Origin: JBFJWU01 sp041623475 [NCBI: bacterium] | GTDB lineage: Bacteria > J088 | Assembly (NCBI GenBank): GCA_041623475.1 | Contig: JBFJWU010000178.1 | Coordinates: 1 to 7,160, forward strand | DNA: 7,160 bases | Direction: 5' to 3' | Part shown: positions 479 through 6,993 of the stretch, one piece after another | Layout: each line of letters begins with the position of its first letter | Position numbering within the stretch: the stretch's first letter is position 1 | Translations under genes and position numbers: made by a program | The notes under the pieces: generated by a model | The model's input: the letters and a program-made list of their open reading frames with translations, nothing else | Databases searched by the model: none | Told to the model about the DNA's origin: nothing

Positions 479-1534
479 ATGACTCGCCTGATTTCCGCCA
501 GAACCATTATTATTGGCCTGCTTGCGATTGTGACCCTGGCGACCCAGGCACCGGCACAGTTCGGCGGCGCCGGACCGTTCAAGATGGGGGCGAAAGTACC
601 AACGTCGGTCGTGCAGGTTTTGCAGCTCAACCCCCCGATGCGGTTGCAGCCGACCAAACAGGTGCTGCCCAAATTGATCGACAAGCCGACATTGCTGATC
701 TACGTGATACCGGGAAACCCTGCCGCCGAAAAGGCAGCCGCCGAAGCGGCCGCGAAAGCTGCAAGTTGGAAAAATATCCAACTGCTGCTGGCTGTTCGCG
801 GAATGAACAAACGCGAAATCGACGCTGCAATCCAATGGGTACAGGATTCTGCCATTACCGTCCCGGTGGTCATCGATGATTCGATGCAACTTGCCCTGGG
901 ACTCCAGGCCTTCAAGGTACCCAGTTATTCGATGTTTGACGGCCAGGCCAGGGTCATGGTCCGGCAGGTTTCGGGAATGGAACGCAAGGTCAAAGATGGC
1001 CGATCGCTGGACGAGGTAATCGCGGACATTGAAGCTGGCAAACCGGTTCCGATGTCAGACGGCGAACTTCGCGAGGACACACGGATCATGATGGGCAAGG
1101 CGATCAAGCCAATCAACCTGAAAGCAGCCCCCTATAGCAAGGGGCCGGCATCGATTACGATCGGCGCCGGAGCCAAGCGGCCAACGCTGGTGGTCTTCTG
1201 GCTGGCCACCTGCCCCCATTGCCAGAAAGAAATGCCCAAAGTCGGGAAATGGTGGGAGAGCAACAAAAACGCTGTAGAACTGGTCACCATTACCCGGACG
1301 GATGGCCAGTATGTTGGTCACACAACCAAGTACCTTGAGTCAAAGGGGCTGACAGACATGCCGGTCTATACCGCCACAGACGATGCGTACACGTCATTCA
1401 AAGTCGAGGCGATCCCGACATGGGCCATGCTCGCCGCCGACGGAACCATTGTTGAAGTTGCGGTTGGCGAAGATCCGGCAATTGCCCGAAAACTGACCGA
1501 AGGTTTGAAAAAGGCGAACGCGCGCCAGCCCTAG
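479..1534 (+). CDS. Exported tandem thioredoxin-fold protein, CPHC active site
   Basis: The 351-residue protein starts at an ATG with a strong ribosome site (GAAGGAG at 467-473, 5-base spacer). Residues 1-26 form a Sec signal peptide: basic N-terminus, hydrophobic core IIIGLLAIVTLA, and a likely cut after APA. It should therefore act in the periplasm or outside the cell. The C-terminal half (about 225-345) is a thioredoxin/TlpA-like domain: beta strand TLVVFW, the redox motif CPHC at 245-248 (WLATCPHCQKEMP), and a cis-Pro loop at 312-314 (IPT) followed by a DG-containing strand. The first half (about 65-190) looks like a second thioredoxin fold with no CxxC. An Ala/Glu/Lys-rich helix sits where the active site would be, and KVPSY (146-150) resembles the cis-Pro loop. 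Disulfide exchange or reduction on exported proteins is the expected role; direction and partner are unknown. The gene is apparently monocistronic and converges on the kinase gene. Confidence 0.8.
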   Translation: MTRLISARTIIIGLLAIVTLATQAPAQFGGAGPFKMGAKVPTSVVQVLQLNPPMRLQPTKQVLPKLIDKPTLLIYVIPGNPAAEKAAAEAAAKAASWKNIQLLLAVRGMNKREIDAAIQWVQDSAITVPVVIDDSMQLALGLQAFKVPSYSMFDGQARVMVRQVSGMERKVKDGRSLDEVIADIEAGKPVPMSDGELREDTRIMMGKAIKPINLKAAPYSKGPASITIGAGAKRPTLVVFWLATCPHCQKEMPKVGKWWESNKNAVELVTITRTDGQYVGHTTKYLESKGLTDMPVYTATDDAYTSFKVEAIPTWAMLAADGTIVEVAVGEDPAIARKLTEGLKKANARQP

Positions 1535-2961
1535 GCCAGCTTTGCGCCGGATTCGTCGCTTTTGCCGGAAAACAGTTCTCCCAGGATGGTACTCAACGAG
1601 CTTAACGAAAACGGCTTGTAAAGAATCGAGTGGACATCAGCTGCAAACGTCAGCCCGGCCAGTTCATCCGGACTGCGGGCCGTAATCAGGACAATCTGTG
1701 GCATCTGGATCTCGCCTTTGTCGGCGATGGACTTCAGGTTCTCAATAAAGTCCATTCCTGACATCTCCGGCATCGACAAATCCAGCAACACAACACGTGC
1801 GCGGATCTGGCTCCATCGATCCAGTGCGTTCTGCGGGCTGGTAAACATGGCTATCGAGTATCCGAATTCTGTCAGCGCCGTCTGGTAAAACAATGCCGAC
1901 TCTTCCTGGTCTTCGACGATGCAGATATCGACAGATTCTTTCTGGTCGGTGCGCCTGCCCGCTTCGGCAACCAACCCATCGTCCTGGCGAATCGGCAGGC
2001 GAACAACAAAACGGGTCCCGCGTCCTGGTTTGCTTTCAACGAAAACAGTTCCCTGGTGGTTCTCGACGACCTCGTGAACCAGCGCCAGGCCGATACCCAT
2101 TCCGCCATACCTGCGGGTCGCCGACGGGTCGACCTGATAAAACCGGTCAAAAATGCGACTAATATTTTCTTTGGGTATCCCGACTCCAGAGTCGGTTATT
2201 TCCAGGATGACGTCTGGATCTTCCTGTCTCAGGTCCACCTGAACCTCGGCGGACTCGCATCCCTCCGTAAATTTGATGCCATTCGAAAGAATGTTCAGGA
2301 TCATCTGCCGCACCTGACGACGGTCCCCCTCGATCATCACGGCACCGCTTGTTGACATATGTTTCAATGCCACACCGCGCGTTGCTGCAAAAGGCTGCAT
2401 CTCTTCGAGAACCTCGATAACGACGTCATTAATATCGAACGTGTTGGACTCGAACGGACTCATTCCGCGGGCCAACTGACTGGCCTGGACCAGATCCTCA
2501 ATGACCCTGTTCAAATGGTCGGCGTTGCGAATCACGGTATCCAGGAACTGTAATTGGTCTTCATTCAAATTATCGGCGTATCGGTACCGCAGCAGTTCCG
2601 CGTATCCGCGAATTGAAACAAGCGGGGTTTTCAGTTCGTGGCTGACGTTCTGCAGAAGATGGGTCTTCATCCGGTCCATCTCCTGCAACGTGGCATTTGC
2701 CCGTTCCAATTCGTCAGCCTTGGCCGTCAGCGCCGCGGTTCGTTGTGCAACGACCTGCTCGATCTCGCCCTTTGCCCGATTCAGTTCGTCCGTTCGTTCC
2801 GCAACCAGGGCTTCCATGTGCGCCATGCTCTCGAAGACCGCGAAGTTGTCTGAACGGCGGTTCTGGAGGCTCTCCACCCGCTCTTTGAGGACTGCGACTG
2901 TACGGCGAAGCGCATCCAGCTCTTCAGCGGGGTCAGGGGCACGATCAGCCAAAGCGTACAC
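1531..2961 (-). CDS. Soluble hybrid sensor histidine kinase with C-terminal receiver
   Basis: The 476-residue protein has no signal peptide or membrane segment. Residues 12-100 are a heptad-rich coiled coil. A HisKA domain follows with the phospho-acceptor His108 (NVSHELKTPL). The HATPase domain has its N box at 223-227 (NILSN), G1 box at 257-261 (DSGVG), F box at 271-275 (FDRFY) and G2 box at 286-291 (GGMGIG). The receiver (about 345-460) keeps the acidic pair Glu350/Asp351, phospho-acceptor Asp394, Thr427 and Lys449. All catalytic residues are present, so it should autophosphorylate and pass phosphate to its own receiver. There is no output domain, so an HPt protein or regulator elsewhere must complete the relay. 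No PAS, GAF or other sensor domain is seen; the FIST protein encoded just upstream is the likely input. The GTG start overlaps the FIST gene by 17 bases without a clear ribosome site. A TTG at 2952 behind GGGTG is an alternative. Confidence 0.92.
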   Translation of the reverse strand: MYALADRAPDPAEELDALRRTVAVLKERVESLQNRRSDNFAVFESMAHMEALVAERTDELNRAKGEIEQVVAQRTAALTAKADELERANATLQEMDRMKTHLLQNVSHELKTPLVSIRGYAELLRYRYADNLNEDQLQFLDTVIRNADHLNRVIEDLVQASQLARGMSPFESNTFDINDVVIEVLEEMQPFAATRGVALKHMSTSGAVMIEGDRRQVRQMILNILSNGIKFTEGCESAEVQVDLRQEDPDVILEITDSGVGIPKENISRIFDRFYQVDPSATRRYGGMGIGLALVHEVVENHQGTVFVESKPGRGTRFVVRLPIRQDDGLVAEAGRRTDQKESVDICIVEDQEESALFYQTALTEFGYSIAMFTSPQNALDRWSQIRARVVLLDLSMPEMSGMDFIENLKSIADKGEIQMPQIVLITARSPDELAGLTFAADVHSILYKPFSLSSLSTILGELFSGKSDESGAKLA

Positions 2962-4075
2962 CCGTCAACGTATGGTTGAGGTGCAATCCCATGTACTGCT
3001 CACCATATGTATTCAATCCCGCGACCGGTAATCCTTCCAGAAGCCTGGCACATTCCTGTCGATTGCCGTCTGCTTCCATTTCCAGAAACCGTCCAAGGCA
3101 ATTGAACAGCAGAACACCACTGGCACCCTGCAGTTCCGAAACCAAACGGCCCAGTTGCTCACGGATCCCGACTGGCGTCATTACCGTTACGACAGCTCCC
3201 TGTTCCAACGCGCTTGCGAAAATCAGGTCGTCGCCCTCGATCCGATAGACGCTGCGAATGTACCAGCGATCCTGGATCCGGACCGCAACCGGATATTTGG
3301 ATACCGCCGGCACGGTCAATTGGTCCGGTTCCAGGCCTACCAGCTCGGCATATGCCAGGCGGGCCGGGCGCCCGTCTATGGTTCGTACTTTACGAGACGA
3401 TCCAACGACATCTGTGATAACAGCCTGTTTGTCGGTTGGAACGAAATGATGATGCTGGAAGCTGGTCAGGCCCAACCGGCATCGACACACCAGGATCAGG
3501 TTCTGGTTTTCGACAACTCGTCCGTCAACGATGACGTACGTTGCCTCAAATCGCAGTCCGTCCGACGCAGTCGCGCCAACCAGTGGTATATCCGGCAGTG
3601 CCAGGTGCATTCGGGCGGTCACGGTTTCTTCCGTCTGCTGCAGGCCGGCACTGAACAAGATGGCCACCCCTTCGGCTGCCGGATCCCGCAACAGGTGTAA
3701 ACCCAGTTCTCGCTCAAAGGTGCTTACGCGGCCGACGATCTCCTGCCAGCCTGCTTCATTGGCCGGCACTTCAAAATGGAATCCGAATACCGACAAGTCT
3801 TCTTCCGGCACCAGGATTGCCGACACACCGCTGGCCGCAATCTGGCCATCGCCAAGAACACCGCTGGACGAACATCCAAAGAACGTCGCATCCGGGTAAT
3901 AAGTCCCCAGTTCGTCGAGAAGCACGAGGACATCAACCTCTGGCGAGACGAAAAGCAACATGGTTCCGGGGATCGCCGGTATCCTGGCCGCCAGTTGCTG
4001 CGCAACCTGTACGGGATCCCATTGCTGGTCGGCGGCACCGGCCACGTGTGCAACCGGCCATCTTGAATCAGACAA
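2945..4075 (-). CDS. FIST-domain signal transduction protein (FIST_N plus FIST_C)
   Basis: The predicted protein has 376 residues and no signal peptide or membrane span, so it is cytoplasmic. The FIST_N half carries FFGCSSSGVLGDG (about 65-77), then PLVGATASDGL and a TYVIVDGRVV strand (about 164-188). The FIST_C half has FQHHHFVP, IDGRPA and the terminal TYGEQ...HNHTLT-type block (about 355-371). FIST domains are intracellular ligand-binding sensors; members of the NosP subgroup bind heme and NO and regulate a neighbouring hybrid kinase. That matches the context, since the kinase gene overlaps the 3' end, but ligand and heme binding cannot be decided from sequence. The frame is open to 4117, also a TTG but without a ribosome site. 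I prefer the TTG at 4075, preceded by GAGGGA (9-base spacer), which overlaps the protease stop by 8 bases. A GTG at 4045 is a further option. Confidence 0.9.
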   Translation of the reverse strand: MSDSRWPVAHVAGAADQQWDPVQVAQQLAARIPAIPGTMLLFVSPEVDVLVLLDELGTYYPDATFFGCSSSGVLGDGQIAASGVSAILVPEEDLSVFGFHFEVPANEAGWQEIVGRVSTFERELGLHLLRDPAAEGVAILFSAGLQQTEETVTARMHLALPDIPLVGATASDGLRFEATYVIVDGRVVENQNLILVCRCRLGLTSFQHHHFVPTDKQAVITDVVGSSRKVRTIDGRPARLAYAELVGLEPDQLTVPAVSKYPVAVRIQDRWYIRSVYRIEGDDLIFASALEQGAVVTVMTPVGIREQLGRLVSELQGASGVLLFNCLGRFLEMEADGNRQECARLLEGLPVAGLNTYGEQYMGLHLNHTLTGVRFG

Positions 4076-4193
4076 TCCGTGCAGTCCCTCGTAATCGCAG
4101 GAATATCCCTGCTGCAATAATCATGCAGAATAGCAGTCCCGGCAGCGCATTAGTCGCCCCCCCTGCAGACACGTTACAACCACACCCACCCGA
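4068..4193 (-). other. C-terminal protein-sorting tail (GGCGC, TM helix, Arg tail) of the subtilase
   Basis: The last 41 or so residues of the protease follow the three-part plan of bacterial CTERM sorting signals. A short motif, GGCGC, is followed by a small-residue spacer, a hydrophobic segment LPGLLFCMIIAAGIFL, and a basic end with Arg831, Arg833 and Arg837. The Gly/Cys signature is closest to the MYXO-CTERM and JDVT-CTERM classes, in which an intramembrane protease is thought to remove the helix after the cysteine has been modified. The basic end lacks the usual consecutive Arg cluster, so the class is uncertain. No processing enzyme is encoded in this window. Confidence 0.6.
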
Positions 4194-6587
4194 CGGCAAT
4201 TGCGGCACCGTCGGGTCCGTAGTTGCATCACTGCCACCACCGCCACCAATAAACTGGCCCGGTGTGCCAACCCTGAACTCGGAAAATCCAGACGGATCCC
4301 CGGGTAACTCACCGGAATCTGCCGTAACTGCGAACCGATACAAATACTCACCGGCAACGGGAAATGTGACCTGGACCGTATACATCTGCGTGTCCAGCGC
4401 GGCGATCTGGTCCAGGCCATAGTGTGCGATGTCGCCAAACGGATCGCGGATGACCAGCGCAGCCCCCAGAATCGAGCCCACCTGTCCTTCTGGATCAAAC
4501 AGAAGCGACCGGAACGTTACCGGTTCCGAAGGCCCGGGATTGTCGGGCTCCAGGCCGTCACTCGCGAAACCATCATCTCCGACCCAGGTCAGGATGGGAT
4601 CGACGTCCAGGGCACCCGCGATGTCCAGGCGACGATCGCCGATCACACCGCTGGTGCCAGACGTCTCGACCGCCAGGAGCTCGCCGCGGTCTGTCAATTG
4701 CCGCACAACATCTGCCGCCGACAACTGGGGATAGACACCGCGCACCAACGCGGCAGCCCCCGCAACGTAAGGTGCCGCAAAACTCGTCCCCTGGATAAAG
4801 CCGAAGGCACTGCTGTAATCATCACCCTGTTTGATCCAGCGTACGCCCTGGATTGCCACCCCTCCCGCAAACAGATCGCTGTCATGGTCACCACCGGTCG
4901 TCATCACAAATCTGATTTGCAGGTCACTGGGCAGGAAACCAAGGATTGCCTCGAAATCGTAGTACGGCTCGGCGACTCCAAGTCCGGAATATTTCCCGTC
5001 CGGAGCCAGTGTCCAGTTACCAACACCGCCGACCCTGTACTCAAGTCGCAGCTCTGAACCGGTACCCAGGTCGTGGGTCACGGCATACGTCAGGATCCCG
5101 TTTCCCCAGGATGCCAGGTCAATTGCGTCAGACTCGAGCGTCTGGTTGATTCCGTTCTCGTGACCGGACGGAGACGTCTGGCCAAATTGCTGGACGGCAA
5201 ATAACGTGCCAAAATCGCCGACGATTGCGATGTCACCCAGGATTGATTCCGCCACGCCCCAGGTAATATTGCTGCCCCCCGCGGTAAAGTCGGTACCGTC
5301 GACCCGGCCGCTGCTGATCGGGCCTGATTCTGTCGTATCATCAAAATTTGCCTCGTCCCACAGATCGATAAACGGAACCACGTCTGTCCGTACGCTCATT
5401 CCCGGAGCTGCGATATTGACAGAGCCACCGAAATTTGAAAACGAAGCCAGGCCATTGTCATTTGTGTGGGCAGCGACACTAAGCAACTGCGGCATATCGT
5501 GGGCCGCCGGAAAAAACGGACTGTCTTCCATGTCGGCGCCGGAATTACCCGCTGCCGCAACCAGAACGATGTCAGCAGCGGCCAGTTCATCCAGCTTTGC
5601 CTTGATGATGCTGTCTTCCTCCGGTCCTCCCCAGCTCATATTGACCACGTCGGCATCTGCGGCAAGTGCGTAATCAAGCGCTGCAACGGCAGCGTTGGTC
5701 AGTCCGCAATCCGATCCGGTCAGCGTCGGAAACGCGCCCAGGAAACGGATATGGATGATCGACACATCCCACGCGACACCGGCAATCCCATAGCCATCGT
5801 TGCCGGACGCACCAATGACACCAGCCACCTGGGTCCCGTGCCCGACGGCATCATTCGGGTCACCGTCGTTGTCGCACGCGTCCCAGCCATTGACATCGTC
5901 GATATATCCGTTATTATCGTTGTCCAGGCCGTCGTTTGGAACTTCATCGCCATTTACGTACAGGTTGGGTACAAGATCCGGATGCAGCACATCGCCACCT
6001 GTATCAATAACCGCAACGCGGACTTGCCGATCGCCAGTGGTTGTATCCCAGGCAACGTCTGCACGAGTGTCAACTCCTGGCTCGCCCGGGTCCAGCTCAC
6101 AGAACCCGTCGTCGTTGGCATCACACGCAGATCTACCTGGGTCTGCAGGATCCTGGGGCGTATTCAATGTCTGGCCGTTGTTGCGTAGCCCCCATTGTTT
6201 GCCGAATTCAGGATCGTCAGGAACCCGCGCAACGTGCCAGCGTCGGTTGGGCTGGACAATTGCCAGGTCGGCCAGGGGTTCGAGGATCTGGATAAGTTGC
6301 GCACCGACGACCGGCTCACTTAGCTGCAGACGGATCGTACCTGACAGCCTGACAGGCGACCAGACCACGTCAATCCCCAGTTGTCGGGACACGTTCCCGA
6401 CCCAGTTTTCCAACTGTTCAGGAATCTCCAGGCTTGTGAAACGGACCAGCCAGTCTGATGCCAGTTCGGTTGCGACCAGATCCGGATTGGATTCGGCGTT
6501 TGCATACCCCACTGGTGTGGCCGTCATAGCCAGCACCAGTCCCAGACCTGTAACCAGCGACCGCAGCGGTCGCAATGGACGACACAT
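4068..6587 (-). CDS. Exported S8 (subtilisin-family) serine protease with STN-like domain and C-terminal anchor
   Basis: The 839-residue protein starts at the ATG at 6587, which has AGGA seven bases upstream and leads directly into a signal peptide (1-31, likely cut after YANA). A GTG at 6626 would add 13 residues and spoil the signal. Residues about 58-120 resemble an STN/secretin N-domain (SRQLGIDVVW...SGTIRLQLSEP...IQILEPL) rather than an I9 propeptide. The S8 triad is intact: Asp195 (AVIDTGG), His250 (GHGTQVAG) and Ser602 (GTSFAAPYVAGAAAL), with oxyanion Asn348 (AAGNSG). Asp/Asn-rich stretches at 154-165 and 218-247 probably bind calcium. About 190 extra residues (404-593), probably beta-rich, separate Asn348 from Ser602. 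A beta-sandwich domain (about 664-774) is followed by a Gly linker, a Gly-Gly-Cys-Gly-Cys motif (800-804), a TM helix (about 815-830) and an Arg-containing tail. It probably acts at the cell surface; the substrate is unknown. It is first gene of the overlapping cluster. Confidence 0.93.
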   Translation of the reverse strand: MCRPLRPLRSLVTGLGLVLAMTATPVGYANAESNPDLVATELASDWLVRFTSLEIPEQLENWVGNVSRQLGIDVVWSPVRLSGTIRLQLSEPVVGAQLIQILEPLADLAIVQPNRRWHVARVPDDPEFGKQWGLRNNGQTLNTPQDPADPGRSACDANDDGFCELDPGEPGVDTRADVAWDTTTGDRQVRVAVIDTGGDVLHPDLVPNLYVNGDEVPNDGLDNDNNGYIDDVNGWDACDNDGDPNDAVGHGTQVAGVIGASGNDGYGIAGVAWDVSIIHIRFLGAFPTLTGSDCGLTNAAVAALDYALAADADVVNMSWGGPEEDSIIKAKLDELAAADIVLVAAAGNSGADMEDSPFFPAAHDMPQLLSVAAHTNDNGLASFSNFGGSVNIAAPGMSVRTDVVPFIDLWDEANFDDTTESGPISSGRVDGTDFTAGGSNITWGVAESILGDIAIVGDFGTLFAVQQFGQTSPSGHENGINQTLESDAIDLASWGNGILTYAVTHDLGTGSELRLEYRVGGVGNWTLAPDGKYSGLGVAEPYYDFEAILGFLPSDLQIRFVMTTGGDHDSDLFAGGVAIQGVRWIKQGDDYSSAFGFIQGTSFAAPYVAGAAALVRGVYPQLSAADVVRQLTDRGELLAVETSGTSGVIGDRRLDIAGALDVDPILTWVGDDGFASDGLEPDNPGPSEPVTFRSLLFDPEGQVGSILGAALVIRDPFGDIAHYGLDQIAALDTQMYTVQVTFPVAGEYLYRFAVTADSGELPGDPSGFSEFRVGTPGQFIGGGGGSDATTDPTVPQLPSGGCGCNVSAGGATNALPGLLFCMIIAAGIFLRLRGTARIV

Positions 6588-6708: not shown

Positions 6709-6993
6709 ATGACATTTTCCTGCGCACGATGTGAAAACGAAGGCCCCCGATTGGAAGCCAAGCCTTTGGGCGGCACACTTGGTGAAGAAGTACTGGAACG
6801 GGTTTGCCAGAACTGCTGGAACGAGTGGGACGAGGTTCAGCTGAAAATCATCAATGAATACCGCCTGAACCTGGCCGTACCGCAACATTACGACATGCTG
6901 GTCGACGAACTGAAGAACTACCTCTGCCTGAAAGAAGGCGCAACCGGCAGCGCATCGGTTTCAGTCGACGACAAGTCAGAACAGACTTACTAG
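6709..6993 (+). CDS. YggX-like Fe(2+)-trafficking / oxidative-damage protection protein, tetra-cysteine form
   Basis: The 94-residue cytoplasmic protein starts at an ATG with ribosome site GGGAGG at 6694-6699 (9-base spacer). The core matches the YggX family: a PLGGTLGEEVLE segment (19-30), CWNEWDEVQLKIINEYRLNL (36-55, compare the WxxWxxxQxxLINExxLN pattern of YggX), and a C-terminal DELKNYL helix. Classical YggX proteins of about 90 residues protect iron-sulfur clusters and are linked to iron handling. Unlike E. coli YggX, which to my memory has a single Cys near its N-terminus, this protein has two CxxC pairs (Cys5/Cys8 and Cys33/Cys36). They could form one zinc or iron knuckle. The last 15 residues are a polar, probably disordered tail. 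The gene is divergent from the protease cluster and ends 26 bases before the convergent gene on its right. Confidence 0.8.
   Translation: MTFSCARCENEGPRLEAKPLGGTLGEEVLERVCQNCWNEWDEVQLKIINEYRLNLAVPQHYDMLVDELKNYLCLKEGATGSASVSVDDKSEQTY

Follow-up and report, generated by a model that had tools for sequence, protein, structure and literature searches.

Three minus-strand genes filling positions 1531-6587 of contig JBFJWU010000178.1 encode, in reading order, an S8 subtilase, a FIST-FIST_C protein and a hybrid histidine kinase. The stretch of DNA analysed, hereafter the window, is 7160 nucleotides (nt) long with a GC content of 0.56 and has five genes, the other two being a divergent and a convergent plus-strand gene that bound the three. 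It is probable that the three genes form one unit in which the last two are a NosP/NahK-type pair of sensor and kinase, and that the protease came to stand in front of the pair through a lineage-specific rearrangement and lies outside the sensing mechanism. A preliminary description of this DNA was right about the coordinates, the domains and, with the likeliest starts, both of the end-to-start overlaps, and its gene identities agree with the Pfam matches (Peptidase_S8; FIST and FIST_C; HisKA, HATPase_c and receiver).

The comparison with NosP and NahK made in that description also holds. A two-pattern scan of genome contigs in GTDB gave at least 553 confirmed relatives of the FIST protein, and the best 80, mostly from Pseudomonadota, were compared with the window as loci. 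In 79 of the 80, FIST is followed within 3 kb by a kinase match on its own strand. Reading-frame scans identified a partner-type N-terminal motif after FIST in 73 loci, with 7 lacking it, and the window kinase has an N-terminus of this type. Starts that would make the partner gene overlap FIST by 1-59 nt are present in 57 of the 80 loci, and in 37 there is one giving a 4-nt overlap, these being available starts and not proven ones. The overlap alone is therefore not unusual. The sole locus without a kinase after FIST is L061 (10001-12771), where the protein after FIST has the kinase-type N-terminal motif and, by eye, a GAF-GGDEF-like output. This locus suggests that the motif may be a docking segment compatible with different outputs.

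The window kinase contains HisKA with H108, HATPase_c and a receiver with D394, based on Pfam and motif positions. No membrane segment was found in it, the hydropathy of every 19-residue stretch staying below 1.6, and this agrees with the earlier view that it is soluble. A profile made from the N-termini of 73 FIST-partner kinases, with the window left out, scores 37.6 bits against the first 75 residues of the kinase and 31.0 bits against the whole protein. As a control, the profile was run against 7355 other reading frames from the loci under comparison. Three frames without an adjacent FIST match by tblastn outscore the window kinase, and the next score is 18.1. Of these three, one (L174, 66.5 bits) is separated from the FIST gene of its locus by a single gene, and the other two (L121 and L179, 40.6 and 40.3 bits) are one place in genome G574 that was originally retrieved with the FIST query. 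The L174 frame, from about 4854, lies past the first partner kinase and is the second in that locus to have the N-terminal motif of FIST partners. Positions 8-68 of the NahK model (NF041831) align in register with residues 8-68 of the window kinase (E 8.5e-6). Its conservation makes it likely that this N-terminal segment is the region that meets the FIST partner.

FIST, a name reportedly introduced by Borziak and Zhulin in 2007, and FIST_C together cover the whole of the sensor protein (Pfam E 3.8e-28 and 2.3e-18). The NosP model (NCBIfam NF041558) aligns over the FIST length with 214.6 bits (E 2.2e-63), missing its equivalog cut-off of 450. Judged by this alignment, the window FIST is homologous to NosP and is not an assigned NosP. 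An AlphaFold2 model of the protein (2945-4078, minus strand), made with 43 relatives, has a mean predicted local distance difference test (pLDDT) score of 91.4. Its best fold match in the PDB is the FBXO22 complex (8ua6_C, E 1.5e-8), followed by weaker matches to Toblerone-fold enzymes (5hy4, E 2.8e-4), among them cyclic amide hydrolases and chorismatase, which hint at a fold common to FIST sensors and enzymes. A PDB search by sequence found no relative, although the fold search did match. Conservation was counted in 43 hand-chosen loci of the 80, in which 64 columns are at least 90% conserved. The window agrees with 48 of the 64, including C69, C327, Y358 and H366, and H366 is the sole histidine common to all 43 relatives.

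Identity of the window FIST to the best 80 relatives is 27-34%, with one at 37% over a part. In the Planctomycetota phylum search, 17 of 294 genomes have FIST relatives at E<=1e-10. There are relatives in 15 of 114 genomes of one order, in 11 of 47 from the Eisenbacteria phylum and in 7 of 397 of the class at E<=1e-15, where identity is at best 33% for matches spanning most of the protein and 37% for a partial one. Plasmid relatives were found in 174 records and phages gave no FIST relative at E<=1e-5. FIST-only scans returned no match in genome contigs and none in viral contigs. The searches brought up nothing closely related to the window, the relatives being about 30% identical and the window's own lineage outside the sampling.

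The FIST-kinase half is a distant, divergent relative of the NosP/NahK pair. According to published reports, NosP-type FIST proteins bind heme, detect nitric oxide (NO) and alter autophosphorylation of the co-encoded kinase, and phosphate from the partner kinases goes to cyclic diguanosine monophosphate (c-di-GMP) proteins or phosphorelay partners (PMC12570481, PMC6769237, PMC11784011, PMC8846402). The same reports place biofilm formation or dispersal under NosP-kinase control in the bacteria studied (PMC12570481, PMC6769237, PMC11784011) and describe the Vibrio cholerae FIST protein CdpA as inhibited by heme (PMC8846402). In NosP-NahK, NosP-NosK and VpsV-VpsS, as in the window, a FIST-FIST_C protein is encoded beside a kinase without a membrane segment or recognised sensor domain. 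What sets the window apart is an identity of about 30% to the relatives that the searches gave, scores under both the NosP and NahK-type cut-offs, the absence of a recognised c-di-GMP protein, and an S8 gene in front. The related GTDB loci share with the window the same kinase N-terminal segment and, often, overlapping starts. Two Halomonadaceae loci resemble it further in that a larger gene overlaps the FIST start, giving a three-gene overlapping run, but there the upstream gene is, by eye, a membrane hybrid kinase and not a protease. In these loci (L017, 7774-12542, and L035, 7702-12476) FIST thus lies between two kinases.

The preliminary description had suggested a link between extracellular proteolysis and sensing, and had proposed a genome search for adjacent S8-FIST-kinase triplets. 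The order was found in none of 228 loci. Using tblastn with the window S8 rather than a family profile, no S8 match was detected in 104 FIST loci, of which 80 have at least 3 kb of upstream sequence and 24 have less. These are 104 of 105 loci, L179 being left out for having no FIST match by tblastn. Over all 228 loci, many of them short, 150 have a FIST match, 32 have an S8 match and none has both. L011 and L228 represent a single place, and several genomes contributed more than one FIST locus. In the other direction, FIST was absent from 20 places with S8 relatives, hand-picked from the Planctomycetota matches and in some cases cut by contig ends, and a kinase match is near the S8 relative in one of these (L218). 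The genes upstream of FIST vary among the related loci. In a Phycisphaerales genome (G001) the NosP-like pair and the related S8 are on different contigs, C153 and C6 respectively. The S8-FIST-kinase order is not conserved in the sampled genomes, which lie outside the window's own lineage. The FIST-kinase pair occurs widely with no protease beside it, and S8 relatives occur without FIST, which by the terms of the preliminary description itself speaks largely against the link. The protease is so far an unreplicated neighbour of the pair, and a functional link between protease and sensor is possible but unsupported. No bacterial protease-FIST operon was found in the literature searched by titles and abstract openings, a search that left most subscription papers outside its coverage, and this is weak evidence that such an operon is undescribed so far.

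By motif positions, the S8 protein has the catalytic triad D195/H250/S602 together with N348. In subtilisin, 66 residues separate the corresponding asparagine and serine. In the window S8 the spacing of N348 and S602 is about 250 residues, therefore a large domain appears to be inserted. Searches of NCBIfam and Pfam gave no meaningful family for this insert, for the first 146 residues or for the C-terminal region. A structure model built without relatives had a pLDDT of 32.6 and was not used. By eye the N-terminus is signal-like and the protein exported, in line with the preliminary description. Its further term, secreted, is doubtful in the sense of freely secreted because of a C-terminal helix, and the protease may stay attached to the membrane or the surface. 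The tail consists of GCGC, then the helix, whose hydrophobic windows start at residues 810-818, and then arginines, two of them close to the helix and a third farther along, which is fewer than an arginine cluster.

The layout of this tail resembles that of MYXO-CTERM, known from Myxococcota and described in one report as an invariant cysteine, generically GCGC, a helix and arginines, yielding surface-anchored proteins (PMC11980579). Like these myxosortase substrates, the window S8 has a signal (by eye) at the N-terminus, GCGC, a hydrophobic helix and C-terminal arginines. Unlike them, it has no NCBIfam model match at E<=10, and no sortase gene was recognised in the window. The search with the last 59 residues was one in which HMMER filters may hide weak matches, and against Pfam at E<=10 these residues gave a single, meaningless match (E 2.7). 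Going by these searches, the likeness is one of layout only. A Planctomycetota relative of the S8 protein (L203) has a loosely comparable tail. S8 relatives at E<=1e-20 are present in 93 of 294 Planctomycetota genomes, where identity reaches 48% across the catalytic part and 52% for a shorter stretch. A further 123 plasmid records have S8 relatives.

The positions of these features are given in Table 1. The S8 gene starts at ATG 6587, with AGGA 7 nt upstream. The FIST gene has no ATG near its start, its in-frame starts being TTG 4117, TTG 4075 and GTG 4045. The first strand of the AlphaFold2 model, residues 9-14, would lose its beginning if translation started at GTG 4045. Because of this strand, and of a GAGGG upstream of the codon, TTG 4075 is the likeliest start. 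The kinase can start at GTG 2961 or TTG 2952. Its overlap with FIST is thus 17 or 8 nt, since the next in-frame start falls within the conserved RVE motif. The neighbouring genes diverge from the S8 gene and converge on the kinase gene, so that S8, FIST and kinase make a closed unit, which makes co-transcription plausible. The three are probably co-transcribed, and translational coupling at the junctions is plausible. Third-position GC is alike across all five genes (0.61-0.67), and in this respect none of them looks recently imported.

Table 1. Location of the genes, overlaps and segments in the window, with the basis for each.
Feature	Position	Strand	Basis
Thioredoxin-like protein, convergent on the kinase; lower boundary of the unit	479..1534	+	Pfam Redoxin, E 8.2e-11
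Hybrid histidine kinase	1531..2961 (GTG 2961) or from TTG 2952	-	Pfam HisKA, HATPase_c, receiver
N-terminal segment common to FIST-partner kinases (RVE...F..F...RT)	2740..2952	-	73-sequence profile; NahK model alignment
FIST/kinase overlap TTGGCTGA, 8 nt (17 nt if GTG 2961)	2945..2952	-	With TTG 2952 as kinase start
FIST-FIST_C protein (NosP-like auxiliary sensor)	2945..4075	-	Probable start TTG 4075; Pfam PF08495 and PF10442
S8/FIST overlap TTGTCTGA, 8 nt	4068..4075	-	With TTG 4075 as FIST start
S8 C-terminal tail SGGCGCNVSAGGATNALPGLLFCMIIAAGIFLRLRGTARIV, layout like MYXO-CTERM sorting tag	4068..4190	-	Sequence, hydropathy
S8 subtilase, 839 amino acids	4068..6587	-	Pfam PF00082 Peptidase_S8, E 3.8e-40; motif positions; hydropathy
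YggX-like Fe(2+)-trafficking protein, divergent from S8; upper boundary of the unit	6709..6993	+	Pfam PF04362, E 4.1e-16

In the proposed explanation, the cytoplasmic FIST protein would bind a small ligand, by homology heme or NO, and would change kinase autophosphorylation at H108 by contacting the N-terminal coiled segment, to which conservation points. Phosphate would then pass from H108 to D394 of the receiver, and on to a histidine phosphotransfer (HPt) protein and a response regulator encoded elsewhere. The S8 protease, exported and possibly held at the membrane or surface, would have been placed in front of the pair by lineage-specific rearrangement and would probably be co-transcribed with it, without being a component of the sensing mechanism. 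Several observations weigh against this explanation. The kinase scores 149.9 bits and does not reach the NahK-type cut-off of 400 (NF041832), and as a whole it is matched more strongly by several other kinase models, TorS and PnpS among them, than by the NahK-type one. The FIST protein is likewise far under the NosP cut-off, differs at 16 of the 64 conserved columns and, in a tree of 126 proteins, forms a long branch with no supported sister. Two successive overlapping junctions could mean real functional coupling, and as no close relative was found, conservation of the triplet has been judged outside the window's own lineage. Given the divergent columns and the long branch, both ligand and output may differ from those of NosP.

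It is conceivable that the protease is instead an output of NO/heme sensing or an effector beside it, cutting back adhesins or matrix at the cell surface in the manner of NO-induced biofilm dispersal. The closed unit with its two overlapping junctions and the surface-type tail would fit this, as would the control of biofilm formation or dispersal by NosP-kinase systems in studied bacteria (PMC12570481, PMC6769237, PMC11784011). However, such an explanation is improbable, as the arrangement recurs in none of the 104 FIST loci and none of the five genes in the window was recognised as a separate response regulator. In addition, with the protease gene placed first, any translational coupling would act from it on the sensor gene. 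The same gene order and overlap, together with the inhibition of CdpA by heme (PMC8846402), would agree with a protease that feeds the sensor, FIST then sensing a product of outside proteolysis such as peptides, amino acids or heme from hemoproteins. This is very unlikely, given a link that is conserved in neither direction (S8 in 0/104 FIST loci, FIST in 0/20 S8 loci and both in 0/228) and five window genes that include no transporter. The characterised FIST relatives bind heme or NO (PMC8846402, PMC12570481), and the earlier suggestion that protease-released peptides or amino acids are sensed by FIST finds no support.

There could also be no single operon, with a promoter for FIST and kinase inside the S8 gene and the overlaps reflecting compact packing only. 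Overlapping starts are indeed common in FIST loci (57/80), and a promoter-like site with a 9-of-12 match lies inside the S8 gene at 5015-4988. This site means little, because promoter-like sites are about as frequent in the window as in shuffles (5 versus 3.6 +/- 1.7). There is, moreover, no gap between the genes, and separate transcription is considered quite unlikely. The promoter and terminator scans of the window were at chance level, and RNA family and tRNA searches found no RNA family or tRNA in it.

The window pair broadens the NosP/NahK layout to include a very divergent FIST protein. The parts that stay constant across this divergence are the kinase N-terminus and, in FIST, the fold, the YGEQ motif, C69, C327 and H366. 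Were a link to the protease demonstrated, intracellular gas or heme sensing would be tied to surface proteolysis. It is unlikely that a surface-sorted subtilase is operon-joined to the divergent FIST-kinase pair, so that the cell would produce the NO/heme sensor and the surface protease in a fixed ratio, for example for shedding matrix or adhesins on the appearance of NO or heme.

The two flanking genes have relatives of their own in the genomes searched. The thioredoxin-like protein has weak matches, mainly to its thioredoxin part, in 47 of 199 Planctomycetota genomes, 116 of 274 from the class to which genome G003 belongs and 51 of 114 of one order. Its N-terminal half (479-1150, plus strand) gave no meaningful family, and none of the listed genome matches starts before residue 140. 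For the YggX-like protein, 80 of 150 genomes from the class that includes G001 have a match, at best with 45% identity. These matches hint at Planctomycetota as the origin of the window, whereas the GCGC tail of the S8 protein hints at Myxococcota, a phylum outside the genomes searched. It has CARC and CQNC pairs and scores 63.5 against the PRK05408 cut-off of 74, and is therefore below it. At the other end of the unit, the kinase and thioredoxin-like genes converge and their stop codons overlap in the palindrome CTAG (1531-1534).

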